This document shows positions 42,701 to 62,069 of a stretch of 64,000 nucleotides of DNA, piece by piece. A program made the position numbers and the translations under genes. The notes under the pieces are model-generated. The model saw only the letters and a list, made by a program, of their open reading frames with translations, was not told the DNA's origin and searched no databases. Origin of the DNA: Neelides folsomi (lineage: Eukaryota; Arthropoda; Collembola; Neelipleona; Neelidae); NCBI GenBank assembly GCA_034687125.1, contig JAQGBZ010000118.1:108653-172652 (forward strand). Reading direction: 5' to 3'. The first letter of the stretch is position 1, and each line of letters starts with the position of its first letter.

Positions 42701-45700
42701 ATTGTCCAAAGATTCTTATTTCACAATTCTACTAAATTAATGATTCATGGAAAATAAGATTTTTAATATTATTACTCTAAAATATGTATTAACTTCATAG
42801 TGTATTACGAACATTGGTTTTGATAGACTGATAGATATTTCACCATGTGGACCCTTATGGCTGTGTGGGAAAATATTTTTAGGGGAAATTCATTGGGAGC
42901 ATAATGGATGAATGGGAGTAATTGAACATGGTTTGATGGGGAAGTGGGAGAGGGCTGAAAGAGAAATTGGGGGCTGAGGGCGGACTTTTCTGTAAAGTTG
43001 AGAGTTGGAAGTTTTGAAAGCCTTTTTCTCTCGAATGAGAAGTTAATGAGGGAGAGGTTAAAAAGGATTGGACTCTGACCACGACCAGAACTCTGTTCAA
43101 ATTGATGACGGCTCAGAGGGCAATTATTTCTCCCATCGACCTGTAGCTCGGAAGAAGCTCCGGGTGGGTGCAGAAGTTCTCCTTTGACATCACTCACTCG
43201 CTTTCATCCCGCTTCCACACGGAGCTCTAAATCTCTCTCAAGTGTTCTCCCCAACTTTCCCCTCCGTCTGGATTACGAACATCCTCTGACTCATCCCGCA
43301 CACAAAGAAAATATTTGAACTCGACTTGGTCCTTTGTCAAGGAAGTCTCTTTGAAATCCGGAGAAATGACGAGGATTAAAAAACAGTCTTATTATTAAGG
43401 TGGGCCTTTTTGGAGGACTAAAGAAATATAATAATATATAGTAGACATATATTGTAGTATTAGTAGTTATTATCCGGGTTTTTACACAGAAGGAAAGAGC
43501 TCTTTTGTCACTCCAACATTTCCTTATGACGTCCCTTTGCTTTCCTTTTTGTTTTATTTTTTCAATCTATGCATGGATCGATGGGGAAGTCAGGAATGAA
43601 TTCACTTTCCAGGTTGGAATAAAAGTTGACATCGTCGCTGTCAACCTCATTTCTCAGAGATTCTCCTTAATAACCCCATTCATTAGGAATGACGGAGGTG
43701 ATATTGCCTATGTATGTTTTACACGCGTTCCGACATTCCTCGTCCGTCTTGACATTCCGATTCCCCCGAATCACCTGATCAAATAACTACAAGAGGCCAA
43801 CTGGGGTCGTTGGGGAATAATGCGTTGGGTGAGTGGAGGTCTTTTGGTGACAGAGATGGAGAGGTTGCTCGGATTCCAAGTTGGATGATTGATCAAGTTC
43901 CTTCGACACACTTCCGCGCATCTTGGAGGACAAATCCATTTCATTACCACTCGTCTCAAATTATTGTTGTCTTGACGAGGTGGATGAGCCCTTTGCATGT
44001 CTGGAGTCGATTCCAGAGAGAGAGAGAGTCGATGCTGTTTGGAAACGCACCTTCCGCCCAGGCTTTTACTCTTCCATTTGCCAAATGGGGGAATTGACAT
44101 TAATTAGAGACATTTGAGAGAGATAATGAGAGAATTTGGGAGTAATTACCTTTTATTGCATTTCACTTCAAACCAAAACTTGTCTCGAGGCTTTGTTTCG
44201 CATTATTATGAGATCTAATGGACAAAGTTTATAATTTACATGCCCATCTCCCTTCCAATTTTTGATGGGGAAATGAAGGAACTGAACCTGTGGCTCTGTG
44301 GAAGTTGCAAATGAGCGGAGGAGATTGGCGAGAGATGAGATTGGATCTCATTTCCGGATTCCCACTTGAGAGCCTGAGATTGGTGAGTGTTTGAGTAAGT
44401 GGGCTGGAAGTGGCAGGCGGTCGACTCCAAACCCGCACCTACAAATTGAATTAACGTTAACCGCAGTTGACGATGAGACAAATCTCCTCCTATTCCTTTA
44501 TATCCTTCCCCCAAATCAACTCACCTTTCTCTTCCCAAACACAATTTGCGCTCGATGACAAAAGATGAGAATTTATGGACACGTCATCCGTGGAATTTCT
44601 TTCTTCTTTGGACCATTTTTGTTATTTCGTATATACACTAAATACAAGAAATACTATACCATATGGCTTAAAGCAAGAAATATTCTCACATTAAATATAT
44701 AAGGTTGTTATCTAATAAATAAAAATTATAAATGAACATACAGTTTATATGGTAGTGAAATATTGAAACTTACTATTTATATTATCTGAAAGTGCTAGTA
44801 TATAGTTAATACTATGTACATAAGTAACACGTGTTACGTGTGCTTAAAAGTATTTTGCAGTATACATGAGTAGATGTAAGATCAAGTTGACTATATTGAT
44901 AGGATTATATATTTTAGAGCACGTGCGGTATATTGTATTAGAAATGGCGTGGAACATGTTCACGGATAGATAAAATAGATTTCCCCATTTTTTTCCTTTT
45001 CCCCTCCCGACGAAACGTTCAATTTGAAGTGAATTAGGAGGGAGTGAGAGAGTGAAGAGAATCCTGCCAATAAATTAGTCCATGAGGCCGATCCGAATTG
45101 AATCCCTGGGAATTGGAGTAACGACGAGAGGGAGATTTAAGAATTTAATTGACCTTCCCTCCACCCAATCACATTTTAATCCCCCACAATGAAATTAATC
45201 GGGAGATTTCTGAAGACCAGTCTATTACATATAACAGCGTCCGTGTGGAAAAGGCCATCCGAACCTAGGGCTCAAACTGATATGGAGTTGGAAGAGGATT
45301 GTTGGGTCCGACGGGCCGGCGGATCCTGAGCGGAATTCCCAATCCTTTGGCTATTTTGAGTCGATATTCGTTGAGCATTATTTGAGCCCTGATTGTCTTC
45401 GCCTCCCACGAGCCCTCCAAAAATGGGCGATGTAGAAGAGAAGTAATTGAATTCTGGAAAAACCTTCATACATATTTAATTCGGAAATGGAAGGGATCTC
45501 AGCGGCTTAATATTTCCCTTTATGAATCAATGGATTCCTCCCCCATCAATCAATTCCCTCCAGTTGGGAAAGAGGAAAAATTCTTGGCTTATTATTTTCA
45601 CCATCATCCAAATGGGGTCTGAAATGGGGAACTCAACAACATCTCCCATTTTGTTTACCAGACTTTAAAAAGTTTACATTACTTTATGGCTTACTGCCGG

Positions 45701-48700
45701 TCCCATCTCCGTGCATAAATGAGCAGGGGGGAGATTGAGGAAAGTGGATTATGGGAAGTGGATGGGAATGGAAAAAATCTGAAAGTGATGTGAAAGCTAG
45801 GGTTGTAATGAAAGTGTGAAATGAAGGGACGATTGTTCATTGTTCCTGGTGGGACAATTACTTGAAATGGGAGAGGGTTGAATTTGAATGATGGGGGAAC
45901 GGCGGTTCTCCGAAGGGCCTTCCATTCTAATACCCAATTCCCTCTATTAAAACGGCTATGAATAATTTGAGCTCCTCATCATTGGAGTCTTCGGCGGACC
46001 GCCAATACACGCAGTCAAACAACATTTTTATTTTTTTCAATTTTTATTTTGAAAATGAGGGCAAGTTCAACTTTGCATTTCCATTATATTGTTCTAATGG
46101 AGGAAGAGATGGGGAATTTGTTCACAATAGCTATGCAATTCCAGGACTGTTTTCGGTCTGAGGATGATCCGGGTCATTAGGATTCAGAGTTTCACATTCG
46201 TTTGAAAGAGTCGCGTGTGGGGAAGCGTGTTTACAAGAGGAATATTTCCCCCACACCTTCCCCTTTCTTTTTGTGCTGGATAAGCAAAAATCCATTCTTA
46301 GCATTTGTAAGGGGCGGCCGTTGAAATGACCCTCAGCTCTCTTCAATCTCCTATGCATTTATTTCCTCTTTTGGGGTCTGAAAAAATCCCTTCCCATCTC
46401 ACCCTTTATTAATAAGGAGGATTTCAACTCTTTGAATGTATTATATTTTAGAAATACATAATAATGATGGATTCGATTGAGGGTTCGATGAAAAATGGTG
46501 GGATTGATGGGCAACCTTTGTGTGGACAAAGAAAAATGGATTTGCGAACGAGGTTTATTTTAAAGAGCGAAAGGGAGGGGGCTCCTCCGAGGGCCACCGG
46601 GTGGAGGAGAAAAATTGATGGTTTTAGCACTTGTCCCGCGAGCCTCAGACTCACCCGACCATCCCTGCACACTTCAGAAGTATTTATATAAAAAAGGAGT
46701 TGATTTATGAGAGCGGCCCACACCCAGAGAACTGGACTGGATGTCATTTCCTTTCATTTGTTCAATGGGGGTCATTAGGGGGATTAGCGGGGATTGGAAG
46801 GTGAAGTGAGGAGGTCGTTCGGGCGGTACAAACGAGTGCTCATTGTAATCAATTCTCTTTAGACTCATCGTAATGAATGGGATTTCATTTACAAGTCGGG
46901 CCGAGGATTGGTGAGGAGTCCTCCAGGGGACGGTTCAGGTCAAGTCGGAGAGCGAGGAATTGAATTATTGAGAGAAGGCATTTATTTATATTTAATCCCC
47001 CCACTTCTGCGGAGATCGATTGGGGGTTGAAAGGGATTAAATCTCGCGACGGAGGTGTGCGGGTCCCACTTGAGACAACTGAGACAACTCGAGACTCGGT
47101 CCTTTCAACTCAATTTTATTGTGGAAGTGGAGAGACAAAGGAGATGAGATACTGTCGAGTCTCTAAAAATGTCCATCATAAAACCCGGCTCGCAATATTC
47201 CTTCATGGGGCTCCCATCATAACACTAAGAGGGCTCTCCAATTTCCAATTTCATCAGCTCCACTTTCTCCCCTGCTGATGGAGAGATCATCCTCGCTCGT
47301 TACCGCGACTCTTCAAACAAGGAACGTCCTCGCAATGAAAGGAAATCTAAAGTTCCACTTCAATCCAAACGTGCATTCCTTCCATCCACGTTTTTATTGT
47401 AACTCCTTTCGCGAGAAATTGAAAGATGAGATTCCCCAAATCTCGCTCTCCCAATGGTCACCCAAGGCTTGGGCTCATCTAATGAGACTCACAATGTCAA
47501 TGGCAGAGTCAGCCTATAAAATGTCACCTTCAATCATCGTCACTACCCACCTTGTGAGGGTTATTTGAAAGAAAGCGGGACTTGGAGATTTTCCAGCAGC
47601 CACCGAAAACATGTTATTTTAATATTCGGAGTATGAGTAAGTTTAGGTTGGTGAGTGGTGGACACGTAGGAGCTTGATGAATACAAAGTGGAAGATTGGT
47701 CCCATTATGGTCTCAAGACGATGTCGAAAGAGGAGCGGAGATTAACTCGCCAACTTTTTCCATCTGTCCCCTTTCACTGCCAAAGTCCCAACCTTCATTT
47801 CCCTCCAACATTAAACAGTGGGATTAAAGGCAGGAGATTTGGACATCTCTTCGATTGGGAACGAGATGTTGGAACCCAGCGCCCCACATAATCCACTGTC
47901 GCTGTCATGATTGATGGTCTCTTATTACGAGGAGTTCTTTGGAACTGCGGGAGTAAATAATAGATATGTATATAAAATCCGAGGACAATCCGATTTCTCT
48001 CCGGAAATGTCCCGAATAGACGAATTGATAATCCGAGGAATAAAATGGGACCGTTTTTGAGGGAGTTGAAGGAGTTTATATTGGAGGCGATTCGTTTGGA
48101 GTCTTCATCTTCCATTGAGGGTCCTTTTGAATTCGGAACTTAATGGCAGCCTCCCTCTCAATGGGAGAGAATGAGGATGAAAAGAAGCATTGGAGAAGGC
48201 GTAGAATTATACGGTCTCCCCCTCCCCTGGAGGAATCGTTATCACTCCGTAATCCCCCGACTTCTCCCCCTCTCTTATTACACATTCCCTCCTGAAGGCT
48301 TGCAGGAGTTACGGTCCTTTCCCAAATCCGCCCAAATTCCTCATTATTTTATTCCCCTTATTATCAAATGGGCCCAGTCGCGATTGCTTTCTCCTCACAC
48401 GGCTCAATGGCTAATTGGACTCTGTCGATATTCAAGTTCGATTAAAGTGATTTGTGCTGAAGAGGTTTGGAAACCGAGGGTGTTGAGCGGGTGTTTCAAA
48501 TCCGCGATGAGAATCACATTTCTGCGAGGAGTAAATAGGAATATGTTGGGAGTAAATTACATTTGATGGGCGGGGAGATTGAATTAGGAGCGTCCATTTA
48601 TACGGCCTTAATCCTTATAGGCGGCGAAGGGAGGCGAAATAAACTTTTCCTCACGACGTGGCTTCCCTTCAAAGTTGAAGTGGATGAAATTTGACCCGAG

Positions 48701-51700
48701 CGTACCCTCAGCATCGGAATGTTTCAATTCCGAAGGGGGAAGTATCGAGGATACAGAACTTTATTGATTTTCTCATCAAACGAAACTTGGCGTCGATCAA
48801 TCCGTTAATTCTCTCCATATACACTATTTTCAAATAAATCTAGTCATGTTAAATCCCGCGACCTTCATTCACTTCTCACAGAGAGGGAGATCGTAAATAA
48901 GGAGGAATACTAATAAGTCTTCTTCGCCTTCGAATGAGATCTTTTATGGCCCTCTTGGTCGATCCTTTTCCCTTTAATGCCTCCACCAGGGAGGATTTTA
49001 TTCCCCAACTCTGGTCGATGGGAAATTTGATTAAATCACCTTATAAAAACCCGCCCCTCCCTTCCACAAATGCAATTTAATGAACGAGAGTTGAATGAGG
49101 ATGGCCAATTGGTTGATTAAAGCCATTCGGCAAATTTGCTTACAATTAGCACATCAGGATGAGGATGAGAAATGCAAATGTTTATCTTTTCATTGCGTGG
49201 CAAGACAATGGCTAAATTATCCCAATTGTGTATTTCAGGTGATGTTGGTCATCCGCCCAGCCCTTCCAGCAGGAGCCAAGTACAAGTGCGTGTTCGGGAA
49301 CGCGCCGCCGATCGAGGCCGAGCTTAAGCCGCACGGGTTGGAGTGTCGAACGCCAGACGTCCGCTTCCGCCCCTTCATCCCCGACGACGAGGACCATGTT
49401 CAAGTGGACCTGGCCGTCCGCTCAGCAGAGACAAACAAGGACTTTGTGAGTCGGGCCTTCTTTTACTACAACTGTTCGCGACACACGCGGTGCCGGTCGT
49501 GTGTGAAATCCTCGTGGGGCTGCAGTTGGTGCGTGAACGAAAACCGCTGCGTCCACGACACCTCCACTTGCAACACTTCCATTGTGAGCGGAGAGAAAGT
49601 CGGACTTCTCCATATGATGCACCAGGTGAGGATTTTAAATGCTAATAACGTTTTAGTCCATCCAAGCTCTGATTGTGGGGATTGAAGACGGAAGTCGATG
49701 AACTTTTGAATCCCTCATTACGCCGGGTGAATAGAGAGGTGAAGGCGGTTCATGTCTCTTTCACTTTCATTATGACTCGATGGCGTGAGGAGAGGAATCG
49801 GTTTTCCTTTTATCAAATTGAATCCTCAGCGGGAGACGAAGCTTTTCATTAGGCCGCCGGTTCGCCCCCGATTTCGGCTCAACTTTGGAAACACCTTGGA
49901 GGGGGAAATGAGTTGGATAAGAAGTGACCAGTAATCCTCCCGACGTGCCTCGCCGAGACGCCTCTTATCCTCCCTAATGCACTTCCCGTGCTTCTCCCAC
50001 GGTCCCCAACGCCGGCCTTTTAATTCCCTCCAAACACTTAAAGGAAAACATTTAGATTTTATTGGAATGGCTAGCAATTTGGCAATTACAACAATGCGCC
50101 TTGTCCACTCAAATCTCCCTGTTGAAGCTGTCTCTTCCCATCAATGTGACATTCTCTCTGGGGATCCGAGGAGTTTGGTCATTTCGAAACTTTTTCTATC
50201 CAAGGGACATGTTGATTGAGGAAGGGACGATGGATCTCTCTATCTAATCTCTTTTAATGGACCCGCATAAGTGGGCCGGTAATGTTTAAGCCCATTTGTA
50301 TTATAATCTAATCCTTTATCTGCTCGAGTGAAAATCCTTTCAATTCATCATCTCGAGCAAATGGAAACTGTAGGGATTTAAATTCCCTGGCTTCAAAATC
50401 CACAACGGCCCTTTTCAATGGAAGTTGACTTGGGTTTAATTGGAAAGTCCGTTGATCCTTTTAATATTTGGAATGCTCAATTAAATAATTACTCCATACT
50501 TTCCTCCTTTCCAATTTAAAGTTGGATTCTGGAACTAACGAGACTTGATATATGGTTATATTATCAAGGCCCCCTTTCTATTTATTATAGTAGTAGCCCC
50601 ATGACGAACTTAACTATACTTTACTAGTATTAAACGAACTATATTGTGTATAGTATTTATATCAGTATCCGATAGTTAGGATAGTTACATAGATTAAGTA
50701 CATTTCTCCCAGGTTGGGGAATCGATGAAAAGGAATCGAGTATCGAGAGGAATGAAAGGTTTTGATGTAACGTTGGTGAGGGAAGGGTGACGGAGTCTCG
50801 ATCATTGACCACGAACACGATTTCTACATTAACCTCTTCAATCTTCTCGGAGGGAGTTGGTAAAAGCCAAAGTCCATGTGTGACAGTGAGTGGTGGGAAC
50901 GTGTGCTCACCCAAGACACTTCATTTTCCCGCATAATGAGCGAGGATGAGTCCACATGGGTTTGGGAAGTCCATATGGCTCAATCTGCATATTTAGGTAA
51001 AAGTGCGGTGGGGAAGTGATTGTGTGGATTTGGAGAAATTTCATTTGTGCGAGGCTGGCGGAGGAGATGGATTGGTAAACTTTATTTCCTGGAGGATCAA
51101 TATGGAAAGGGGAGGACTCGGACGGAGAATGACACATGTAGTCCTCGGCGGTTGGCAATCCATCAGCGAATCTCTCTCATCTCGGCGGAAAATGAGATTC
51201 TCTTTCATACCCAAACTTCCATTCTTCAATTTGTCCTCTGGAGGAGAGACAGCCAAATTCCCCACATCTCCTCACACCCCAGACGGGTGGGATTGTCAAA
51301 GTTTCTTTTATTACCGGAGAAACTCCTTCCCACCCCTTGCCCAAATGGAGACCTAATGTGATTGAAATCCGGGTCTTAACATGACCAGACAACAAACGGA
51401 TTCCTCCCTAATTCCCATTTTAATTCCTATCGCTGAGAGAGAGAAGCGAAGAGTAATTCAATCATTCAGCTTTGATTGACCGAGTTGGGTGGCGTTCCTT
51501 TGAGACTTTCCCCTTTTGGGCTGGAACAACAAATGGCTTCATTCATTTCATCCCCGACATATGATTGGGTTCGTTTGAGTTTTATCTCTTCCACTTTGAG
51601 TCTCCTTGTAAATTCATATTTTATATAGAGAGAAAACGTGAATGGGAACTTGTCACCTTCAGGCCTGTTGGAGTTGTTCAACTTTTTAAATGAATCCATA

Positions 51701-54700
51701 TGGATTCTTATCCTCCAGCATCTCTTCACAAAAGGAGAAAGACGTTGAAAGTTGTTCCGAACAACTTTCTCTGTTTGTCTCGCGTTCGTGATTAAGCCTT
51801 TTTAATAAATCCCGAAGAAGGAACTTTTTTTATTCATGTGCTATACGGTGGAGGTCTCTAATGTATGCAAATGGGAGTGATGTTGGATGAAACTCCATTT
51901 GATAGCTGAGGAGGAAGCAAGGAGATTTGGGTTAAATAACCCCCTTCGTTCCGCCATCCAAACCCTCGAGGCGAGAGGGGAGAGGAAATTGAGGAAAAAT
52001 AAAGAAAGAATGCAGGAAAATACACTTCATGTTTTCAGTCCAAAATTCACTACGTTTGACATCGAGGAACATGAACGTATCGTCCAATGAGATTTACAGA
52101 GAACATTCTCCGAATTCTCGAAAAAAGAAAGATAAGGGGGGGAAATGATGAATTAAAAATTAAATGGCCGCTACAAAATCCTTCACAGGATGAACACATT
52201 TACTTATGTGGGCAGTTTAAAAGGACTTTTAAATAATTAATTCGTGAAATGCTTATTTGTTCTATTTTTCGCGATAATCAGAGTCGACGTTTGTAAAATG
52301 AAGTAAGAGTTATAGAGCGCATTTGAGTGGTGGGTTTTGTCATATCCTATCTAAAATATATTTTCTAGATATTCATGGTGGATATTCTTTACTAACAATA
52401 TTAAATGGGAAGTCCGATGTGAACGATGTACATAGGTATTTGGAGACTTCGAGTTTAGCTAGAGATAAGGACTTTGGTCCCATCAAGTTTTTCGGTTCAA
52501 CTCCCTTAGAATTCTTTTGATGAGTGCGGAGAGTTTGTCCATAACTCACCTCGGAACTACGTTATCTCAATTATTAAATTATGGACCCGGAACTCGGCGA
52601 CCCAATTTAAATCCCCCACCTTCCCAACCACCGTCGATTTCTCCAAATGAGAGAATATTAAAAACTCGCGCAGTTTGTCAGAGTTGATGAGAGTCGAATT
52701 TGGGCGGCCGTCTTCATTGAAGCAGAAAGGATTATAAGATTAGATTAGATTCCAACCGCCGCCGAAATAAATGAAATGGAAAATGGGACATTTGAGAGTT
52801 AAAAGCCTCTGATTCAGCTCTAATCCCAATTTCAAAAATGATTTCCTTTTAGAAAGGGAAAAAATTACATTTGAGAATCGGGTCGTCCCAAGTTGTGTAA
52901 AATTGGAGCTTAAAGTGTCAATATAAGATTTTCCTTAATGTTTTCCTATCTTCAACAACCAGTACATTTATTCATATAAATACTATATGTGCAGTACATC
53001 GAGGTTAATTCATATACACTAGCCCTGGGTCAAAAGTGAATTGTCATCGATGGGAGATTGGATCCAAGTTTTTTAATAAATAAATTTACTATCAATTGAG
53101 CGATGTGAATCTTTTTGAAAATGTATCCATGTTGAATGGCTGGGTATTTGGGCAGTGAAATTGTCCCACGTCAAGGCCCATTTTCCAACACCAGTGGAAT
53201 CAAGGTTGAAGTCGATGGAAGGGAGATTTCATTTCTCGGGGGATCTTTGGATGTTTAGGATTTAGTCGTATAAATGAAGTTTCTAAATAACTTTTCCTTT
53301 TTATTATTTAGAATCCGGCTCAAATGGCGACCCACGGATCAGGATTCTGTCCCCGGTTCCGGAACTCGGGCGAGTCCCTTTTATTGGCCAACAACGTGCC
53401 GAAGAAAATCCGTCTCGAAGTGGAGAATCTTCCCCGTCAAGTGAGACTGCCATTAGCTTCTCTTATGAAATACCCTAATCTCGGCCTCTTGGCACAACCA
53501 CCCGGCTCGAACCCTCTCTCGGATTTATAGCCCTTGTATAAATATTTCATTTGATTGTGCGAAATTGGGTTCTCCTTTTGCCATTTTAATATTCCCTCCC
53601 AGCCCAAGAGCGAGTAAATAAATAAAAGGAGGAGTGGATGGGTCCCGTGTTATTATCAATTTTTATCCCTCCGCGCCCGCTCCATTTAATAAATATATAA
53701 AAGGCCCTACAATTAAAATAAGTTTAAACAGTTTATTTACTTATTTTATTTAATCGACCCCCTGTTTATGGATGGGCAGTCAATGGGGAGAGCATTAGAA
53801 GTTATTATCCACTATTACTCAATGAGCCCGAGTGGCCGAGTGGGAATTGTGAAGGAAATAAATTACACGGCCCGGGTTGATAGCAATCTGAGTAATATGG
53901 CCATATTAAATGGGAAGTTTGTCCAAGGAAGAGACAATCATTTATTTTTATATTGCTAATAAATCCCGGGCCCTGTGATTGCTTCTGTCTCATGGAGACG
54001 TCCTTCTCCGCATGAATGACTCCGGAGGAATAAGGTCGGAAGGGTCATGTTGGACAATGGCCGAGACTTGCGAAATTTACACATTATGTTCAAAATCCTG
54101 TAAATCTTCCCCGCTTTCGAACACCCGAATCCCCAACATGGTGACCTCGGTACTCAATTTGCTAATTTCACAGGCCACACATTCTGACTTCCATTGCATC
54201 ATTCACATCGAGGAGTCGAGCACCAGAGTTCCAGCCAAGATCGAAGGTGGACGATTCGTCGTGTGTGAGGAAACGACGGTAATTTTTTGTTCAATATTTA
54301 TGTAATTACATTCCATTCTTTGAAAGTTTTTTTTATTTATTTAATCAATTTCTCCATTTCAGCTCTCTTATAAATCCAATACGGGAGAGTACACTGGGAG
54401 TGTGACCGTGGTTTGGAAGCAAAATCATCACCTCGACACGATGAACTTCACTTTGTATAAGTGCGAGATCTTGGGGTCTCACAGGAGTCACCCTGACTGC
54501 TCGTTGTGCGTGACCCCGAGCAACGCCAAGTATCGGTGCACGTGGTGCGGAGAGTCTTGTACCTTCAGGGAGTCTTGTCTCAAGATCCCCGTCCTCAAGT
54601 GTCCGAAGCCAAGGATTGATGTGGTAAGCACAAGTTTGTTATCTTTCCACTTCCCCATCTTTCTCCTCAGATGTGCAATCAGCAGATCGGAAATTCCCGA

Positions 54701-57700
54701 TCGTCTTAACCTCCCACATTTCTCCAATTCATTCCGATAAGACGAGATTAGGAATGGGAACGAAGTTGGAAACGGTCGGAACGACAGTCGGCGGCCGATA
54801 ACAAATTCCCCTTCAATTCTTTCATTTATTTATTTAGGAAAAGTTCCTCTTTTTATATGTCTCACTAACTGAGCTACATTCGAGTATAAAGAAAAATTAA
54901 TATTTTGTATGCTTTTAATATTGCCATGGGTTATATCTACTTCAGTAGATATTAAGCTTAGTGAACAATGGATCCTTTTTTGTGTTTTTTATTTTCGTAT
55001 TGGTAAATGGTAGATGGACTTGGTTTCATGGATTGGATAAGACATTTGGAATCGGATTCATTTTTTCTTCAATTGTTATTATCATTCTTCCCTTTGGTTG
55101 AATAGAAAGGGAAGATTGACGTTCACGACTCGCGACGGCAGTTGAAGGTTCCGAGGAATTCCGTCCCTTAACACTTCACGACTTCCCCTCATTTCTCATT
55201 CTAATTTTAATTGCTTCGATCTGCCAAGTGCGAAGGACGTAATCTCCCTCCCCCTCGGCCGGGGAATCTTTTCAATTCTTCTTCTTACCATAAATTTCCA
55301 TCCCGCCATTGATTTCACCGGCGGGGCTTTCATGAATGATTTAATATAAATTATTATCTTCTCCCAGGTCAAATCCCTTCTTGGAGATGACTTCTCCTAC
55401 TTTAAACATTCTCCATTTATAAGGAAATTCCAAGTTATATATTACTTATGAGGACCTCTTTTTAAACCTACTTATAAATTCAAAAGATATATTTACGGAT
55501 TTTAAAGCTTATACATGTATTATTAATACGGACCAGTCACTAAACTTATTCTTATATTAAATATATGCATACCTAGTATACAGAAATACATAATTTATCG
55601 AAATGTTTTTAATTATAACTTTCTTAAGATTGTATCCCTACTTCGGTATGTGTATACCCCATTAATACATTTTCTGATATTTTATAGGAATTCCAGGTTA
55701 TTTGATATAATCCAGGCCTTTTTAGGATTTTCTAAAAACTTGGCAATTATTTCTCTTTTGTAAAACATACATAATTCATTGTGATAAATTGCGTGGTTTA
55801 ATGAAGGCCGCTAAATAAAGTTAAGGAACATAGTTATATAACTACATACATTCATAATTGAGTTCCACTTTTCCCCCAATTTGGCCTATTTATTCTTTCG
55901 AAAGTCCGAGTTCCAAACTTGGGAATGAACCAATGAATGACTACAAACTTATTTAGTAAATAGTCTGAAAAGGTAAACATTAAAGATGAATTTATTCAGA
56001 ACCGCCTTTAGTATAAACCCTCTCGCGGGTTTTCACTTCTTTTCCATTTCATTTCAACTTCCAACTTCAAAGGCGAGCAAAGAGCTCAATTAATTTTTCT
56101 AATATAAATATTAAATGAATTTCCAAATGTTTCTACTTTTCTTTTTTCCTCTTAATTGACTACTGGCTTAAATGCAAATGAATATTCATGAAATCACATA
56201 TGTGTAAGAACTTCTGTTCCATCAATGAGAAATGTCATTCATTTTTACGAATTCCTCCAAATTTAACTCTCCAAGTCGATTTTATTTCCAGTTTTTAAAT
56301 TTGCTAAATCCAAAGAAAATTTGAGTTTTACGAGTTTAAGTGGGATCACATAAGAAAAAGAAGTTTGGGGGAAATGTCCGAAAGAGCTTAATTGAGGGCA
56401 TAAGAGAACCGAAGGATCTTTTTATCTCCTAAACTTCTTCGTTTTCCCCTAAGTTGAAAAAGAAGGAGGACCAGAGGGCTTTGACTTTATTTATATTAAC
56501 CTTCATTTTTCTTTTGTAGATAAAGCCGCTCAGCGGCCCGAAGGAAGGCGGAACTCTTGTGACAATCGAGGGAAGCGACCTCGGCCTCAAAGAAGAAGAC
56601 GTCCGGGGGAAAATCCACATTGGCCAAACCCCATGCGAACTCGTCGAGTATCAGGTTCGATTAAATGGGAATTTAAACAATTGAGAATTCGATTGAGTTA
56701 CCTAATTTGAATATTGCTTGAGGATGACATTTGAATGTTTTAGGTGTCAGTCCGAATTGTGTGTCGAACTGGTGCAGTTGAGAAGGAACTTGAAAGCAGC
56801 ATTCAAGTCGGGAATGCCGTCGGCTACACCAATTCATCCGTACACTTCAGCTATAAAGTAAGCTTCGGTTCAATGTTATTAATCTTATTGTTATTATTAT
56901 TGGTTTGCTTATTATATTAATCTTCCAGAACATCCGACTTTCGGGATTGACGCCGAACAAAGGTCCACGAAGTGGAGGGACTCAAGTGACGATCATGGGA
57001 TCTTTTCTTAACATTGGGTCAAGCGTGAAGGTTCTTTTCAAAGACTATCCCTGTAATGTGAACACGAGTCACTCGTCCTCTTCCCGCATCACCTGCGTGA
57101 CCTCCCAAGCCATTTCCAATGAGACAATCTCTCGGGTCGTGGTGAACATTGACAATGCTGTGCGGGTGCTGGAAGACGGGCGGCTGTTCCGCTACACCCA
57201 CGATCCAACCATTGTTGAGATCAAACCTTTGAAGAGCTTCGCCTCCGGCGGCCGAATGATCACCGTCCACGGCACGAACCTTGATTCTATTCAGAGCCCC
57301 GAAATGATCGTTTACGTCGATCATCACTCCCAGCTTTTTATTAACAGAACTGTAAGTTCATTGATTACAAATGGTTAATTTAATTGAATGACAACATTGT
57401 GAAATTGTGATTGAACAGAGATGTACGGTGATTGGGCCAACGCAAATGGAATGTCCGTCTCCGTCCATCAGCTCTGATTTTGAGAAGCGAGTGATTGGAC
57501 GTCGAGCACGGGCAACGGGAGGACGTCGGGACCATCGACAGGAAGCATCAAAGCGAATTGGGTTCGTAATGGACAACGTGGAGTCGGTCCTTCATCTTCA
57601 CAACTATTTGGCTCAAGACAAGAGCCAACTCGTTTACGTCCCCGACCCCATCGTCGCCCCGTTTCCCTTCAATTTGAAGCTCTACAAAGGAGACACGCTT

Positions 57701-60700
57701 GTGATTGAGGTGAGTTTTGCGAACTTGGGCAATTTCAATTTCCCCTCCAACTGGGCATTATTTTAAAAATAGGGCGAACACCTCAATGACGCCTGTGATG
57801 AGACGGATGTGAGCGTGAGCATTGGGTCGCAAAAGTGCAACGTGACTTCTCTCGCCCAAACCCAACTCGTTTGCAACCCACCCGAAGTTCAACCACCGGG
57901 GACAGACGGCGGACTTCCCATGGTCACTGTCCGGATCGGGCAGTTTCTCCGGTTCCAGGTGGGACAACTTCAGTATGAGTTGACCAAGGACAGCGTGTTC
58001 CCAGCCGAGGCTTATTGGCTCGCCTGCATCTCCGCCCTCGTCCTACTCGTTTTGTTCTCGATCATTGTTTTCGTGTATCGGCGTAAATCGACGCAGGCCG
58101 AGCGCGAGTACAAGCGGATTCAAATTCAGATGGACACTTTGGAGAGCAACGTTCGGTCGGAATGCAAACAAGGTAAGTCTCCTTTTCCTCTTCTCACGTT
58201 TCGCAGAGAAAGCAATTTATGATTGGGAGAAGTTTGTGGTGGAGGAGTTTGAGAAGTGTTTTTGCTTTTAGCCTTCGCCGAGCTTCAGACTGATATGCGA
58301 GACTTGACGGCCGACTTGGGCTCTTCGGCCATTCCGACACTCGAGCAGAAGAACTATGTGATGAAAGTCTTTTTCCCTGGCGTGACGGAACATCCCATTC
58401 TCCGAGATCCCAAAGTACGTCAAGTAAGCCTTGTAGTTCTCAAATGTCAATCCAAGTTTCCCTGTGCGGTCGATTAGTTTCAAGCTCTTTCAGATGCGGA
58501 TCAATGGGCCGTCGACGAACTACGACGCGGCAATGAGCCAATTCGAGCTCCTCCTCAACAACAAATACTTCCTCCTCACCTTCATAGACACTCTGGAGAG
58601 CCAGAAGATGTTCAAACTCCGTGACAAGTCCGTTCATATTTTTATCCCTTCTTTTATCTATTCCATTTACTACAAATATTAAAGCCCATGGATATTGAAG
58701 AAACGGAGTTTTTAAATGATGTTTCCTTAGGGTTAATGTCGCCTCGCTGTTGATGATCATCCTCATGGGGAAAATGGAATATGCGACGGACATTCTTCAG
58801 AGTCTTTTACACCGACTGATCAACAAGTCGGTGGGGACGAAGCATCCACAATTAATGCTTCGACGGACGGAGACGGTCGTGGAGAAGATGTTGAGCAATT
58901 GGATGGCACTTTGCATGTACAACTATTTGAAGGAAAGTTCTGGCCCCAGTTTGTTCCTTCTCTTCAAGGCGATCAAGTACCAGGTTGAGAAAGGGCCGGT
59001 GGATGCCATCACACATGATGCACGTTATTCGCTTTCTGAAGAGCGACTCCTTCGAGAACCGATCGACCACTCCGTTGTGGTGAGTCAACTTTTCCCCATC
59101 TTCCCCCGAAGCTTCGTTTTCACTCTTTTTCTTTTCGCTTTTCAGAATATTCATCTTGTCCAGGAAGACCCATACTATGAAAAGATCCCGTATCAGTCGT
59201 ATCAAGTACGTGAATCTTTACTCTCTCTCTCTCTCTTGCTTTTTCCTTCCAACATGCATGAAAAATGAGGAGCTTGACAATCTTGACATTTCTAAATAAT
59301 GCCCATTTGGGAAGTTTTGTAAAAGTCGAGCCGTTTTCCCGCTTTTAACAGTCGCTCAACTCCACAATAGACGAATTCATTATTGTGAAAGTAATTAAAT
59401 GTTGAGGGGAAGTCGAGGTTTGGGACGAGGGCGATTATTCACACGGCCACGGGTGAAACCCCATTTGTCGAGGAATTAAGGAAAAGGGCGAAGGAAGACT
59501 AATTCACAATTAATCCCTCCATCAGTCTGTCCAATTAGGAGAAACTCATCACTACGACGTGAATAATGCGGAGAGACTTTCCCATTTCCCCTATGCTTTT
59601 ACATCATTTCATTCCCTGCATATTTCAAAGTGTTGTAGGGATCTGAATGGCAGGGAAGTGAGACGTCTCAGCTCCCAGCTGCTTCCCTTTTTTCATTTTA
59701 ATTGCCTTGGGTTGGGTGGAGGGGGGAAGAATAATAAAAGAGGATGCTAATGGCTCTCTTGCTCTTAGACTTTCCAAGTCGTCCAAGAAGAGCTCGATGA
59801 GAAAATCCAATGCAAAGTTCTCGATTGCGACACAATTAGTCAAGTCAAGTCCAAGATCCTCGACGCTCTCTACAAAAATACACATTTCAGTCTCCGACCT
59901 TCCGTCCATGATCTCGATTTAGGTAATTTAACAAGCCTTCACATTATTGCTTTTATGAGTGATGAGGTGAAATTAAATATGTATGAAATATATTTAATTA
60001 AATAATAAACAGAATGGCGACATGGGAGAGGCGGACATTTGACGCTTCAAGATGAAGATTTGACCACTCGATCTGTTAGTGGTTGGAAGAAGCTCAATAC
60101 ATTAGCGCACTACGGAGTCAAAGATTCGGCTGTGATGTCTCTCGTTGCTCGACCTAATGATACTTATAGTAACAACGTGGGTCTTTGCAAAAAACCATGC
60201 AATTATCATACATGTGAGTTTTACTCCAATTCCTCGCTTGAATATCATTAGATCATTGAGGAAAGGATTATGATGATTTTTTTAATTTTACAGATTCTGG
60301 TGGAGCCTATTTGAACAGTGGAATGTCTCCAATGGGCGGATTGGGCAATGGCCTTGGTCTCAGCTTAAGTGGACTTGGGACATTGAGCAACGGCGGGAAT
60401 CGCGAAGCCCCCAATTTTCATCTTATTCGTCCCTTAGAAGAAGAACGTGTGGGTTCGGCCGGCGGGCAAAGTAGAACTTCCGAAAGAGCTCATAAAGCCA
60501 TCCCGGAAATTTTCCTCACCCGGCTCCTTTCAACCAAAGGAACCATCCAGAAGTTTGTTGACGATTTCTTTGATATCATCTTTACGGTGAATGATGGACT
60601 TCCGCCGGCTATCAAATGGCTCTTTGACCTCCTTGATGAAGCAGCACGACGTCACAACATCCTCGACCCTGAAGTGGTTCATGCATGGAAATCAAACAGG

Positions 60701-61522
60701 TGAGAAATAAAAGAACAAATTGATTGATTCATTAATTATTAATTGATTAGATTCTTGTGTATTAACTAACCTGATAATATTTGTTGGTGAGAGTGTGACA
60801 ACACTATAAAGTGCCATCACAAACGCACCGATTTAATTAAATCGGCGAGTTGCGAGTTGATCGAGTTGATTGATTGATTGAATTGAATTGAATTAAATAA
60901 TTTGATAAACTTTGTAATTAATGTTAAAACCTTTTGTAGCTATCCTCTCCGGTTTTGGATCAACTTTATCAAAAACCCCGACTTTATCTTCGACGTGGAG
61001 AAGAGCTGCACGGTTGAAGCGAGCTTAGAAGTTGTGATGCAAACGATGATGGACTCATGTTCAACGTCTGAGCAACGCCTTGGCAAAGACTCCCCTTCGA
61101 GCAAGCTCCTCTTTGCCAAAGACATTCCTCATTACCGGAACCTCGTTTCCAAATTTTACTCGGACATTCGAGCTCTCCCTCAGATCTCGGATCAAGAAAT
61201 GAATTCAGCTATGCAGCAGCTTTCAATGGCCCATGGCTCTCATTTCGATCACGCCGCAGCTCTGAAAGAACTCTACATTTACGTCACTCAATACAACAAT
61301 TCGGTTTGTTGGAAATATAAACTTTTTAAATATATTAAATATTAGGAAAGTTTGAGCCATTTAAGTACATTAATGTATTTATATAGTTAACTAATGAATG
61401 GATTCGATTTTTAGATCTTGGAGAGCTTGGAAATGGACCCGTATTGTAAAAAGATGCATTTGGCCCATCGTTTGGACAACGTAGCTTGCACCCTCGAAGG
61501 AGAAGAAACTTCAATGTGCTGA
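14593..61522 (+). CDS. PlexB: Plexin, B-type (PlexB-like semaphorin receptor), 23 coding exons
   Basis: This is a single-pass receptor for semaphorins that controls axon guidance and cell adhesion through its cytoplasmic GAP for Rap/Ras-type GTPases. Joining the 23 exons listed below gives 1,956 codons with no internal stop, and every junction phase agrees. Approximate domain order by residue: signal peptide 1-34, sema 36-490, PSI1 500-551, IPT1, PSI2 647-682, IPT2, PSI3 810-857, three or more further IPT modules 864-1257, transmembrane 1265-1286, first GAP half 1318-1526, Rho-binding domain 1556-1645, second GAP half 1725-1945. The GAP arginines are present: R1454/R1455 in LMLRRTETV and R1804 in PLRFW. 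The length is normal for plexins. B-type identity rests on cytoplasmic motifs such as [37 protein letters not shown] and [10 protein letters not shown], which I recall from insect PlexB. It could be a divergent PlexA, but that is less likely. The start is the first Met of a signal peptide. Confidence 0.9.
17095..17265. repeat. AT-rich patch
   Basis: AT-rich segment with ATATATGTACTC, ATACCTATACTCATAT and GTACACAATAATATAC words, similar in texture to the other AT patches in the introns. Confidence 0.5.
17817..17883. repeat. Perfect 30-bp inverted repeat (long hairpin)
   Basis: Bases 17817-17846 are the exact reverse complement of 17854-17883, leaving a 7-base loop (CCGAGGA). The arms start GATTCCCCCTCTATTCCGAG and contain no mismatch. 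Transcribed with the intron, it would fold into a long perfect stem. It could be a microRNA-like precursor, a foldback element remnant or a recent local inverted duplication. The perfect arms suggest a young origin or selection for structure. Confidence 0.92.
17925..17964. repeat. 13-bp inverted repeat next to the long hairpin
   Basis: ACAATTGGTTTTA (17925-17937) and TAAAACCAATTGT (17952-17964) are exact reverse complements around a 14-base loop. It lies 41 bases after the 30-bp hairpin. Confidence 0.85.
19622..19798 (+). CDS. PlexB: Plexin exon 2: sema domain, C-terminal blades
   Basis: Encodes residues 390-448, phase 0 to phase 0. The acceptor is ATTCCAG|GGTGCG and the donor AAGAAG|GTGAGT. 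The product contains [11 protein letters not shown] and [17 protein letters not shown], the plexin sema strand that reads VVFVGT.DG.LKKV in relatives. It joins the previous exon at the Pro-Gly/Gly-Ala loop. Confidence 0.95.
19799..23789 (+). other. Plexin intron 2 (3,991 bp)
   Basis: GT-AG intron. No gene, RNA or strong repeat is recognised. The longest frames (152 and 132 codons) have no family resemblance. Confidence 0.85.
23790..23918 (+). CDS. PlexB: Plexin exon 3: end of the sema domain
   Basis: Encodes residues 449-491, phase 0 to phase 0. The acceptor is GTCTTTCAG and the donor AACAAG|GTACTT. The product contains [20 protein letters not shown] followed by [10 protein letters not shown], the last propeller strands, equivalent to LYAMTEKQV in vertebrate plexins. 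Confidence 0.95.
25102..25206 (+). CDS. Small nested gene, exon 1 (unknown 79-aa protein)
   Basis: First exon of a small gene inside plexin intron 3. It encodes 35 residues and ends in phase 0 at ATACCG|GTAATT. The ATG at 25102 is the first Met after an in-frame TAA at 25033-25035. The product begins [19 protein letters not shown] and contains [10 protein letters not shown]. No signal peptide, membrane segment or cysteine is present. I do not recognise the family. The low codon degeneracy and sensible splicing make it more gene-like than the chance frames around it. Confidence 0.55.
25320..25454 (+). CDS. Small nested gene, exon 2 (unknown 79-aa protein)
   Basis: Second exon, 44 residues plus TGA, entered through CGTTTTTAG in phase 0 after a 113-bp intron. 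The product starts [14 protein letters not shown], then runs into a Lys/Gln-rich stretch, likely helical, ending [10 protein letters not shown]. The whole protein of 79 residues has an acidic patch followed by a basic, possibly coiled helix. Because it contains an intron it is not a simple retrocopy. An ATTAAA variant poly(A) signal lies near 25499. The function is unknown. Confidence 0.55.
   Translation, partial: KAAWNLEDEDEEDVTLRNAILKIQKQNKEKFDDHALDELKKMAK
26669..26769 (+). CDS. PlexB: Plexin exon 4: PSI1 (first half)
   Basis: Encodes residues 492-524 and two bases of codon 525. It contains the PSI core [19 protein letters not shown], the cysteine-rich wedge that orients the sema propeller. 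The donor is GAAAAG|GTACAA and the acceptor ACTTTTAG. Confidence 0.96.
29320..29470. repeat. AT-rich patch
   Basis: AT-rich segment with TATATAG, ATACACAC and ACCTATG words in intron 4, with less AT-rich flanks. Confidence 0.45.
31380..31625. repeat. AT-rich patch
   Basis: Extended AT-rich stretch (ATACTCATAGTACATATATT and similar, then A/T runs) in intron 4. No coding potential is seen. Confidence 0.45.
31903..31914. repeat. G12 homopolymer
   Basis: A run of seven T is followed by twelve G. Long G runs are rare in the window. It could be a polymorphic or error-prone site. Confidence 0.9.
33554..33634. repeat. Spaced 11-bp inverted repeat
   Basis: AGCTTTTGTTC (33554-33564) and GAACAAAAGCT (33624-33634) are exact reverse complements 59 bases apart. 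This may be chance. Confidence 0.6.
34619..34751 (+). CDS. PlexB: Plexin exon 5: PSI1 end and start of the next IPT
   Basis: Completes Arg525 and runs to residue 569, ending in phase 0 at GGATCG|GTAAGT. It supplies the remaining PSI1 cysteines (RCTVRGAC and GSGQEC) and then the linker [18 protein letters not shown], which enters the first IPT fold. Confidence 0.94.
34831..34915. repeat. TACATA/TATGTA-rich imperfect palindrome
   Basis: Repeated TACATAC words on the left face TATGTATG words on the right (about 34848-34892), so the segment can fold on itself imperfectly. It is part of an AT-rich patch just inside intron 5. Confidence 0.55.
39285..39375. repeat. AT-rich patch with TACTTA/ATATCTG words
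   Basis: ACTTACTTACATAAGTATA followed by repeated ATATATCTG. It resembles the other AT-rich patches. Confidence 0.45.
40211..40230. repeat. Perfect 20-bp palindrome
   Basis: CATTTTGTATATACAAAATG equals its own reverse complement with no spacer. It could bind a dimeric factor. It could also be chance in AT-rich DNA. Confidence 0.9.
44630..44945. repeat. Long AT-rich patch
   Basis: About 300 bp of AT-rich sequence in intron 5 with TATATAC, ATATATAAGG and GTACATAAGTAA words, including the palindrome AACACGTGTT (E-box core CACGTG) near 44827. Confidence 0.5.
49239..49625 (+). CDS. PlexB: Plexin exon 6: IPT1 and PSI2
   Basis: Encodes residues 570-698, phase 0 to phase 0. The acceptor is TGTATTTCAG and the donor CACCAG|GTGAGG. 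The first part is an IPT/TIG fold ([25 protein letters not shown]). The second PSI is at about 647-682, with [28 protein letters not shown] and THDxxxC-like VHDTSTC. It is GC-rich, like exon 1. Confidence 0.95.
49626..53311 (+). other. Plexin intron 6 (3,686 bp)
   Basis: GT-AG intron. No gene is recognised. AT-rich patches lie at about 50560-50690 and 52930-53000. Confidence 0.85.
53312..53440 (+). CDS. PlexB: Plexin exon 7: IPT module after PSI2
   Basis: Encodes residues 699-741, phase 0 to phase 0. The product contains GSGFCPRF, equivalent to the GPGFCPTI segment I recall from fly PlexA, then [21 protein letters not shown] (the last 20 residues are the IPT strand pair). The donor is CGTCAA|GTGAGA. 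Confidence 0.9.
53441..54173 (+). other. Plexin intron 7 (733 bp)
   Basis: GT-AG intron. It is AT-rich in the middle (53660-53760). No feature is recognised. Confidence 0.85.
54174..54278 (+). CDS. PlexB: Plexin exon 8: IPT module, middle
   Basis: Encodes residues 742-776, phase 0 to phase 0. It contains [19 protein letters not shown] and FVVCEET, which match the YECVLxIxG.xxRVPA and VxC pattern of plexin IPT. The acceptor is CTAATTTCACAG. Confidence 0.92.
54363..54623 (+). CDS. PlexB: Plexin exon 9: IPT end and PSI3
   Basis: Encodes residues 777-863, phase 0 to phase 0, after an 84-bp intron. [18 protein letters not shown] matches the plexin strand VxVIWNG..xIDNP. PSI3 follows at about 810-857: [27 protein letters not shown] and SCLK, ending at the CPKP boundary. 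Confidence 0.95.
54624..56519 (+). other. Plexin intron 9 (1,896 bp)
   Basis: GT-AG intron, strongly AT-rich between about 55430 and 55700. No gene is recognised. It is the last long intron. Confidence 0.85.
56520..56654 (+). CDS. PlexB: Plexin exon 10: IPT module
   Basis: Encodes residues 864-908, phase 0 to phase 0. It has the classic IPT signature [17 protein letters not shown] and then [14 protein letters not shown]. The donor is TATCAG|GTTCGA. Confidence 0.95.
56744..56857 (+). CDS. PlexB: Plexin exon 11: IPT module, end
   Basis: Encodes residues 909-946, phase 0 to phase 0, after an 89-bp intron. It contains VRIVCRTG and NSSVHFSYK, the closing strands of the IPT begun in exon 10. The donor is TATAAA|GTAAGC. 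Confidence 0.92.
56929..57351 (+). CDS. PlexB: Plexin exon 12: one IPT and the start of the next
   Basis: Encodes residues 947-1087, phase 0 to phase 0. The first module has [19 protein letters not shown] and DYPC...RITC, ending [10 protein letters not shown]. The next begins [20 protein letters not shown] with [10 protein letters not shown], matching the plexin phrase GxNLxxIQxPxM. There are several N-glycosylation sites. Confidence 0.95.
57419..57709 (+). CDS. PlexB: Plexin exon 13: IPT module with a basic insertion
   Basis: Encodes residues 1088-1184, phase 0 to phase 0. [15 protein letters not shown] and [14 protein letters not shown] are standard plexin IPT elements. Between them lies an arginine-rich stretch (residues 1110-1133) with RRAR at 1115-1118 (57500-57511). 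The exon ends with DPIVAPFPF and KGDTLVIE, which open the membrane-proximal IPT. Confidence 0.94.
57773..58172 (+). CDS. PlexB: Plexin exon 14: last IPT, transmembrane helix, juxtamembrane helix
   Basis: Encodes residues 1185-1317 plus one base of codon 1318. It completes the membrane-proximal IPT ([34 protein letters not shown]). Residues about 1265-1286 ([20 protein letters not shown]) form the single membrane span, followed by the stop-transfer YRRKS. A charged juxtamembrane helix ([19 protein letters not shown]) follows, which in plexins helps dimerisation. The donor is CAAG|GTAAGT. Confidence 0.96.
58272..58414 (+). CDS. PlexB: Plexin exon 15: start of the GAP domain
   Basis: Completes Ala1318 and runs to residue 1365. 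It starts with the invariant plexin sequence AFAELQTDM and then [19 protein letters not shown]. Two in-frame donors exist: AAA|GTACGT (end 58414) and CAA|GTAAGC (end 58423), the latter adding Val-Arg-Gln. The first is preferred because it gives the spacing to the next exon that I recall for PlexB. Confidence 0.9.
58494..58627 (+). CDS. PlexB: Plexin exon 16: GAP domain
   Basis: Encodes residues 1366-1409 plus two bases of codon 1410. It contains [18 protein letters not shown] and [19 protein letters not shown]. The donor is GACAA|GTCCGT and the acceptor TTTCCTTAG, rejoining as Lys-Val-Asn-Val-Ala-Ser. Confidence 0.94.
58731..59079 (+). CDS. PlexB: Plexin exon 17: GAP domain core with catalytic arginines
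   Basis: Completes Lys1410 and runs to residue 1526 in phase 0. It contains [12 protein letters not shown], then [19 protein letters not shown], in which R1454/R1455 correspond to the first arginine-finger motif of plexin GAPs. [20 protein letters not shown] is the conserved segment before the Rho-binding domain insertion. The wording [11 protein letters not shown] is PlexB-like. Confidence 0.96.
59146..59205 (+). CDS. PlexB: Plexin exon 18: 20-residue tyrosine-rich exon, possibly optional
   Basis: A 60-bp exon, phase 0 to phase 0, with good splice sites (CGCTTTTCAG acceptor and CAA|GTACGT donor). It encodes residues 1527-1546, [20 protein letters not shown]. Four tyrosines lie in eleven residues, including YEKI, a YxxPhi-type motif. 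It sits exactly at the junction between the first GAP half and the Rho-binding domain. Skipping it keeps the frame and gives a junction ([16 protein letters not shown]) close in length to the fly PlexB junction as I remember it. Confidence 0.75.
59206..59768 (+). other. Plexin intron 18 (563 bp)
   Basis: GT-AG intron beginning with a CT-dinucleotide run (about 59220-59236) next to the donor. No gene is recognised. It is the only intron above 300 bp in the cytoplasmic-domain half. Confidence 0.8.
59769..59922 (+). CDS. PlexB: Plexin exon 19: Rho-binding domain, first part
   Basis: Encodes residues 1547-1597 plus one base of codon 1598. It contains the plexin Rho-binding-domain signature [20 protein letters not shown] and [10 protein letters not shown]. 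This ubiquitin-like fold binds Rac/Rnd-type GTPases and, in B-type plexins, is part of the Rho signalling branch. The donor is TTAG|GTAATT. Confidence 0.95.
60013..60213 (+). CDS. PlexB: Plexin exon 20: Rho-binding domain, second part
   Basis: Completes Glu1598 and runs to residue 1664 plus one base. [20 protein letters not shown] is assembled across the junction. [20 protein letters not shown] follows, then a variable tail with two cysteines. The donor is ACAT|GTGAGT. An upstream AAC|GTGGGT would break the frame. Confidence 0.93.
60294..60699 (+). CDS. PlexB: Plexin exon 21: Gly-rich linker and second GAP half
   Basis: Completes Tyr1665 and runs to residue 1799 plus two bases. It opens with a Gly/Leu/Ser-rich low-complexity linker (about residues 1666-1699) in place of the usual short variable loop. 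After FHLIRP it enters the [54 protein letters not shown] and HAWKSN. Confidence 0.95.
60700..60939 (+). other. Plexin intron 21 (240 bp) with a GATT/GAATT repeat
   Basis: GT-AG intron. Near its 3' end a small tandem run (GATT)n then (GAATT)n occupies about 60868-60895. Confidence 0.8.
60940..61303 (+). CDS. PlexB: Plexin exon 22: GAP domain with the second catalytic arginine
   Basis: Completes Ser1800 and runs to residue 1921. [20 protein letters not shown] carries R1804, equivalent to the third GAP arginine of vertebrate plexins. [20 protein letters not shown] and [10 protein letters not shown] are near-invariant plexin words. The acceptor is CTTTTGTAG and the donor TTCG|GTTTGT. Confidence 0.96.
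61415..61522 (+). CDS. PlexB: Plexin exon 23: C-terminal helix and stop
   Basis: Encodes residues 1922-1956 and the TGA stop at 61520-61522. [20 protein letters not shown] and [11 protein letters not shown] form the last GAP helix, in PlexB-like wording. The frame does not end naturally here: the stop context is TGC-TGA-CAT and the same frame stays open for 70 more codons (see the next entry). No PDZ-binding motif of the vertebrate plexin-B type is present at this stop. Confidence 0.93.
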
Positions 61523-61735
61523 CATGAGGAGTCGCCTCCTCCACCGCCCTCGTCGTCCTCCGCCTGTGATATCTTGGGAGAAAATCTCCTGTTCCACAAG
61601 ATGCTCCAACAGCAACACGGCGACTACGACTTTGACCCCGAGTTCCTTTACCATCAACATCTGTCGCTCCAAAGGAGCCAGAGGAGCTCAAAGGGTCGGC
61701 CACCCTTTGGAACTTCACGTCGTTACTACGAGTGA
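61523..61735 (+). CDS. Candidate stop-codon readthrough extension of the plexin (70 codons)
   Basis: After the TGA, the plexin frame continues for 70 sense codons to a TGA at 61733-61735. The predicted extension begins with a Pro5-Ser4 stretch and continues with DILGENLLFHKMLQQ, DYDFDPEFLYHQ, then a Ser/Arg-rich tail ending RRYYE. By hand count 44 of 70 third positions are G or C. UGA-C is the leakiest known stop context, and a 6-bp stem lies at 61526-61541. Another frame (ATG at 61524, 83 codons) and the antisense strand are also open here, so openness alone is not proof. An alternative splice that removes the stop has no good sites. This is inference until tested. Confidence 0.45.
   Translation, partial: HEESPPPPPSSSSACDILGENLLFHKMLQQQHGDYDFDPEFLYHQHLSLQRSQRSSKGRPPFGTSRRYYE
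61526..61541 (+). promoter_or_regulatory. Stem-loop just after the stop codon
   Basis: GAGGAG (61526-61531) pairs with CTCCTC (61536-61541) around a 4-base loop, beginning four bases after the TGA. Downstream structure is known to promote readthrough in some genes. The stem is short. Confidence 0.4.
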
Positions 61736-62061
61736 ATTTCTTTGGCCAGAGGAAGACGAGGAAAGGAGAAGGTGACGCTCCGTTGAATGCACATATCAAA
61801 CTCTTCGAGTTATTTGACATCACACAGTGTATTTTCCAAAGACTGACAATGAGAGAGACACAATTATATGTATAATTATATGTAGAGAGAAACGAAGGGA
61901 GTTTATATAAAATGTACTTAAGGAGATGAAGCATCTAACAATTAATTTATTAAAGTCGAATATGTTGGCTCCTTTTATGTAAATTTTCCCGACTTGCAAC
62001 GCCAGCGGCCAACTTTACTTTCAACCTCGAGTTTACCTTTAAATATAAAATATTTGCAATT

Positions 62062-62069
62062 TGTAAATA
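62062..62069 (+). promoter_or_regulatory. Pumilio-type site TGTAAATA
   Basis: Exact match to the Pumilio recognition element UGUANAUA in the 3' UTR. Confidence 0.5.

Follow-up and report, generated by a model that had tools for sequence, protein, structure and literature searches.

The window analysed here is the whole 64-kb stretch of DNA, which comes from an arthropod with a small, compact genome. It carries a plexin gene that is itself long and has long introns, and whose 3′ part is organised as follows:

14593..61522, forward strand: the plexin, proposed ATG to TGA, encoding Sema, PSI, TIG and cytoplasmic RasGAP domains
60940..61303, forward strand: penultimate coding exon, in which the Pfam RasGAP domain ends (profile positions 321-439 of 441)
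61304..61414, forward strand: last intron, with the weak donor TCG/GTTTGT
61415..61519, forward strand: last coding exon, 35 residues that align to the C-termini of solved plexin chains
61520..61522, forward strand: stop codon TGA; the next three bases are CAT (61523-61525)

The gene is identified as a plexin by its combination of Sema, PSI, TIG and cytoplasmic RasGAP domains. Seven of the eight exon pieces compared with Pfam gave a match above the cut-off, and the ten pieces from 57773 onward form a single open frame once joined. Searching the genome for the plexin cytoplasmic family gave four matches, each inside this gene, and a pattern search with the penultimate exon in collections of genome contigs and viral contigs gave 43 and 11 matches, with no relative among them. 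The label “PlexB” given in the initial annotation is sound as far as “plexin” goes, while its B class is weakly supported: the Plexin-B PSI match on the exon pieces reaches 24.2 bits, under the cut-off of 27, and A-type plexins are the best scorers in two solved-structure searches. At the first TGA the protein ends in ...EETSMC, 2-7 residues from the ends of solved plexin A and B chains.

Downstream of this stop, we distinguish the following features:

61523..61732, forward strand: candidate readthrough extension, 70 open in-frame codons
61524..61775, forward strand: overlapping +1-frame ORF with its ATG beside the stop, 83 codons plus stop, not coding-like
61526..61541, forward strand: short predicted RNA hairpin GAGGAG-TCGC-CTCCTC (-8.5 kcal/mol), 16 nt, three bases after the stop
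61733..61735, forward strand: the second stop of this frame, a TGA with A as the next base
61736..61786, forward strand: 16 more open codons in the same frame, up to a third TGA at 61784-61786, with the GC drop placed at 61782

It had been proposed from the letters of this DNA that the plexin stop is occasionally read through to give a minor long isoform. The description underlying this proposal is accurate: the TGA is followed by C (61523), the same frame stays open for 70 codons (61523-61732) until the TGA at 61733-61735, 44 of the 70 third positions are G or C (0.629), and the protein-like pieces PPPPPSSSS, LLFHKMLQQ and DFDPEFLYHQ are present. The accompanying caution also holds, since two further frames, one forward and one antisense, contain no stop codon within 61523-61732. 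The extension has no relative in Pfam, NCBIfam or solved structures, and within its own genome it matches itself alone.

The initial annotation called the stop context the most readthrough-prone one. According to the available text of PMC5100048, TGA and a following C do raise leakage, but the strong motif is UGA-CUAG and the plexin has UGA-CAUG, so that the claim goes too far. Neither CUAG after the TGA nor the 8-mer CAGCAGCA is found. The 16-nt hairpin is matched by 3 of 200 shuffles over the first 24 nt, and folds over 40-80 nt show no clear excess relative to shuffles (z of 0.14 for 60 nt counted from the base after the stop). It is shorter than the stem-loop of at least 35 nt within 60 nt of the stop that is used as a criterion in the accessible part of PMC13170385. 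These absences count against readthrough, even if predicted structure is listed for 9% of readthrough candidates and CAGCAGCA for 23% in what is available of PMC5100048.

Among 5000 dinucleotide shuffles of the extension, 12.4% are open for at least 70 codons, as are 34 of 250 TGAs of the window that have GC-matched sequence downstream. This proportion is 133/2581 for all TGAs in the window, and 0.85% when the AT-rich 3′ region is shuffled in full (61523-62430; 2000 shuffles). Given its composition, the openness of the extension alone is not beyond chance (12-14% of cases). Within the same genome, none of 65 control stops is followed by at least 70 open codons (maximum 65, median 7) and only one of them is TGA-C, two observations that favour readthrough. 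An extra control on 264 kb of raw sequence gave 0/16 stops with at least 70 open codons and 4/16 with a GC content of at least 0.5; as several of these 16 stops are clearly non-terminal, it was kept out of the argument.

The composition itself is an outlier. GC content reaches 55% in the 210 nt following the stop, whereas the 65 control stops average 25.6% (sd 6.6, maximum 52), which puts the extension at a z of about 4.5, and only 13 of 1929 windows of 210 nt outside the masked exon pieces of the 64-kb window reach at least 55%. The last four introns have 21-30% GC and the flank at 61787-62430 has 27%, so the extension has an exon-like GC content in AT-rich surroundings, in favour of readthrough. 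However, the second stop brings no drop in GC content: the change point, which is a measure of composition only, lies at 61782, 47 nt further on, and the GC-rich block is therefore not bounded by the reading frame.

The codon signal was assessed with two training sets. Ten plexin pieces, two Pfam-matched ORFs and two Sema exons supplied the 1828 codons of the first (three more Sema loci were excluded because of stops in their reading); 19 kinase exons and a single Ras exon supplied the 3805 codons of the second. Frame 0 of the extension ranks first of the six frames under three codon models, in favour of readthrough, with a narrow lead under the kinase model (-8.1, with -9.2 for an antisense frame containing two stops). 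Its log-odds relative to GC-rich non-coding sequence is nevertheless low, -4.1 with the pooled model. This lies near the bottom of the exon range, with 67 of 70 plexin exon windows higher and 3 of 70 as low (overlapping windows, leave-one-exon-out), although low-complexity exon pieces of the plexin gene score equally low. Values as high as that of the extension were found in 33 of 201 chance-open windows, which overlap. Scored against its own composition, the extension obtains -6.0 bits and the last coding exon +6.8.

The distribution of GC over codon positions is more exon-like. The position-2 GC deficit of frame 0 is matched by 0.8-2.6% of its own stop-free shuffles (three runs of 500); at the level of 5% or less, such a deficit is seen in 34 of 50 real exon windows and in 8 of 118 chance-open windows. 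Comparing log-odds with the same type of shuffles would speak against coding (501/1000 as high), but this test was set aside because shuffling destroys the natural trinucleotides on which the non-coding part of the score was trained, and shuffles are thereby favoured. Without the non-coding part, 3.4-6.6% of shuffles score as high as the extension, and the 5% level is reached by 36 of 50 real windows and 20 of 118 chance-open windows. Here plexin windows were scored with the kinase model, kinase windows (those after the second of each exon being omitted) with the plexin model, and chance-open windows (GC 0.45-0.60) with the pooled model. Altogether, the coding evidence for the extension is mixed.

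We consider it somewhat more probable than otherwise that the TGA at 61520 works as the normal stop of the plexin, and that the first 260 nt of its 3′ UTR are GC-rich by happenstance. Ribosomes would terminate at this TGA, leaving the C-terminus ...EETSMC. The GC-rich 260 nt would leave two forward frames and one antisense frame open, since stop codons are few in GC-rich sequence; some leakage at UGA-C would be expected, a selected long isoform would not. Plexin identity, stop position, composition and the chance of openness were established directly, and from the whole we infer that the extension has no coding function. In agreement with ordinary termination, the stop lies where solved chains end, openness arises in 12-14% of cases by chance and other frames are open. 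The low codon log-odds, the GC-rich sequence up to 61782 and the lack of relatives of the extension point the same way. So does the absence of CUAG, of a 35-nt stem-loop and of CAGCAGCA, though most known candidates lack structure or 8-mer. The GC outlier, the absence of an equally long open frame among the 65 controls and the position-2 GC deficit point the other way.

Ordinary termination is at least as likely as occasional readthrough, which we regard as a possibility to be entertained with reserve. A near-cognate tRNA would decode the UGA in a small fraction of passes, and the resulting minor long plexin would gain a tail of 70 Pro/Ser/Gln-rich residues, probably disordered and cytoplasmic, that would hide the normal C-terminus. 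The proposed minor long isoform is consistent with a stop context, frame length and composition that are rare in this genome and with an exon-like position-2 deficit; it agrees poorly with codon log-odds at the low end of the exon range and with a GC-rich block that crosses the second stop, and it is kept as a possible candidate only. The gene is long with long introns, as is typical of readthrough genes, and the mitochondrial gene order is, by eye, of pancrustacean type, readthrough being abundant in Pancrustacea (both traits as given in the available part of PMC5100048). Conceivably, then, the sole plexin found in this genome may make a minor readthrough isoform, and leaky termination might tune axon-guidance signalling.

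Other explanations fare worse. Alternative splicing that would remove the TGA and read the extension in frame is very unlikely. While the donor of the last intron is weak (5.5, against 8.6-11.8 in the other nine scored introns) and a phase-compatible CAG acceptor lies at 61611-61612, no acceptor in the extension scores above -0.5, compared with 8.3-15.0 for the ten scored plexin acceptors, and the last conserved helix would be lost. With this small in-sample matrix, donors being paired from 61251 onward, splicing within the last exon is not supported. It is just as improbable that the extension was formerly coding and that the TGA arose by a recent nonsense change or by faulty assembly: the composition is exon-like up to 61782, but the stop coincides with the ends of solved plexin chains and a second in-frame stop precedes the end of the GC-rich block. 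Least credible is that the +1-frame ORF is translated, whether ribosomes reinitiate at the ATG at 61524 or shift frame. This frame runs from stop to stop over 61485-61775, offers 83 open codons starting one base past the stop and ends near the GC change point. Yet its position pattern is non-coding-like (0.43, 0.63, 0.59), its log-odds range from -10.9 to -21.4 (over 61523-61732, -16.3 with the pooled model against -4.1 for frame 0), and it has no above-cut-off match in Pfam or NCBIfam. Finally, the plexin TGA is not of the selenoprotein type: Rfam includes SECIS models, and none is among the three matches in 60700-63400 up to an E-value of 10. Selenocysteine, antisense coding, reinitiation and splicing were all weighed and set aside.

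If readthrough does take place, a guidance receptor would acquire a second cytoplasmic tail with no splicing involved. If it does not, the locus illustrates how, in an AT-rich genome, a GC-rich 3′ UTR can mimic a readthrough extension, and marks the reach of single-genome tests.

In the open-access literature searched, as far as its available text goes, no paper on plexin readthrough was found, the two words co-occurring only unconnected, in a book of meeting abstracts and in a paper on another subject; the plexin would at most add one case to the known readthrough genes. As described in the available text of PMC5100048, those of Drosophila and Anopheles resemble it in their TGA-C, second frame-0 ORF, long genes and introns and pancrustacean host. 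They were called from conservation across many species, whereas the plexin candidate is known from one genome. A fall of coding potential at the second stop is a supporting, not a defining, trait of these genes; unlike them, the plexin candidate combines a weak codon signal with an unchanged composition at that point. The four human UGA-CUAG genes of the same source share with it a UGA followed by C, the plexin continuing as UGA-CAUG. Stem-loop-aided readthrough of Drosophila dfr/vvl, in the accessible portion of PMC13170385, likewise involves a hairpin just past the stop; the dfr stem-loop spans +9 to +59 after a UAG, in a screen for at least 35 nt, and the plexin hairpin covers 16 nt from +7.

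The initial annotation had described a TGA plexin stop followed by C and by 70 further codons in the same frame. This open frame was borne out, the TGA being followed by CAT and by 70 open codons up to a TGA at 61733-61735.

14593 (proposed ATG)-61522, forward strand: plexin gene, about 47 kb, ending in TGA 61520-61522
61523-61732, forward strand: extension, the candidate readthrough tail

Of the eight plexin exon pieces scanned, seven exceed the cut-off for a Sema, PSI, TIG or plexin RasGAP model and the remaining one matches a Plexin-B PSI model below its cut-off; joining ten pieces from 57773 onward forms one open frame. The TGA at 61520-61522 stands at the expected place, since the C-terminal piece aligns to within 2-7 residues of the chain ends of solved plexins A1, A3, B1 and B2. 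The plexin cytoplasmic family has four matches in the 75-Mb assembly (possibly incomplete), all within this gene, the only one found with that domain; PlexA and PlexB are both usual in arthropods. The donor of the last intron is weak (TCG|GTTTGT), and retention of this intron would swap the last exon for 13 residues and a stop ending at 61345 (stretch 61304-61345).

Given the composition of the extension, its openness is not beyond chance: 12.4% of 5000 shuffles of the same composition were open throughout, two forward frames were open in 2.5% of 5000, and at least 70 open codons follow 34/250 GC-matched TGAs of the window. Measured against control genes of the same genome, however, it is beyond chance. 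These controls, part of the eligible matches, are 65 terminal exons (23 P450, 17 Ras-like, 20 trypsin, 4 Wnt and 1 ligand-gated channel), one (L071) being kept despite a stop inside its matched piece. All 65 stop at most 45 codons from the domain end, 12 with TGA and one with TGA-C; the open length that follows in frame 0, the gene's own frame, has a median of 7 and a maximum of 65 codons, and reaches at least 70 in 0/65.

Composition is the real anomaly at the plexin 3′ end, and the openness follows from it. GC is 0.552 in the 210 nt past the stop versus a mean of 0.256 (sd 0.066) in the controls, of which only 1/65 reaches at least 0.5; a caveat is that the control families lie mostly in AT-rich places while the window as a whole has 42% GC. 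The sole control with a GC-rich 3′ UTR start (52%; L091, a P450 end on contig C16) has its post-stop frame 0 shut after 15 codons. The last four plexin introns have 21-30% GC, six earlier ones 27-44% and the 3′ flank 27%, and 55% is attained by 13 of 1929 windows outside masked exon pieces. Rather than at 61735, the GC drop is placed at 61782, close to a third in-frame TGA that frame 0 reaches 16 codons beyond the second stop (61736-61786, the change point lying inside).

In favour of coding, GC by codon position in the extension (0.60, 0.43, 0.63) is similar to that of plexin exons, and frame 0 ranks first of six frames under three codon models (plexin-trained, kinase-trained and pooled), narrowly so in the kinase model (-8.1 vs -9.2 for an antisense frame carrying two stops). 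Its position-2 GC deficit is attained by 0.8-2.6% of stop-free shuffles (19/1000 in a separate run); at the 5% level this deficit marks 34/50 real versus 8/118 chance-open windows. The codon-likelihood shuffle test places the extension at 3.4-6.6%, with 36/50 real and 20/118 chance-open windows at the 5% level. Counting against coding, the extension's log-odds versus GC-rich non-coding sequence (-4.1 pooled, +0.1 plexin-trained, -8.1 kinase-trained) are attained by 33, 19 and 48 of 201 chance-open windows, respectively; values this low occur in only 3/70 windows of plexin exons, and two of these three begin within the Gly-rich piece 60299-60329. The composition-normalised score is attained by 27/384 chance-open windows, and the own-composition score is -6.0 bits versus +6.8 for the last plexin exon. 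We judge all the codon evidence combined to be about neutral. The top-scoring chance-open window of one codon test lies in the open stretch 7726-7980 (forward strand), possibly an exon of another gene.

On a rough estimate assuming 12,000 genes, chance alone would account for a few such genes (1/65 GC-rich × a guessed ~14% TGA-C in sequence of that kind × ~12% open), and readthrough as frequent as in insects, taking insect proportions for TGA-C and extension length, for somewhat more. As the codon evidence is neutral, the GC boundary does not match the second stop and the comparison is limited to one genome, we lean slightly towards ordinary termination at the plexin TGA and regard its functional readthrough as possible but somewhat less likely. 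The plexin is a fair candidate for readthrough, not an established result. Three other explanations gained no support: splicing around the TGA (top acceptor past it -0.5 vs 8.3-15.0 for plexin's own ten), translation of the +1 frame, which scored non-coding-like, and selenocysteine decoding, no SECIS being among the Rfam matches. An antisense frame (61335-61934, reverse strand) spans the plexin end with 199 open codons and no Pfam match.

The stop context had been proposed as readthrough-prone; UGA followed by C is indeed a leaky context, although the CUAG motif does not occur here. A hairpin, GAGGAG-UCGC-CUCCUC, begins three bases past the stop, its 24-nt stability being equalled by 3/200 shuffles; 100-nt folds starting 0-9 nt past the stop give z of -1.57 to -2.30 and a 121-nt fold -1.76, and RNA structure at 40-80 nt shows no clear excess over shuffles. 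This hairpin falls short of the 35-nt stem-loop criterion set out in PMC13170385. The motif CAGCAGCA, present in 23% of readthrough candidates according to PMC5100048, was not found in 61270-61735.

COX1 was located on contig C742, where TGA encodes Trp. By-eye reading places a Leu(UAA) tRNA between COX1 and COX2; its minimum-energy fold is not a clean cloverleaf, and ARAGORN, run under bacterial settings, detected none at this locus. The order COX1-Leu(UAA)-COX2 is a mark of Pancrustacea. It matters because PMC5100048 reports abundant readthrough from none of the non-Pancrustacea tested, and from most insects tested and one crustacean.
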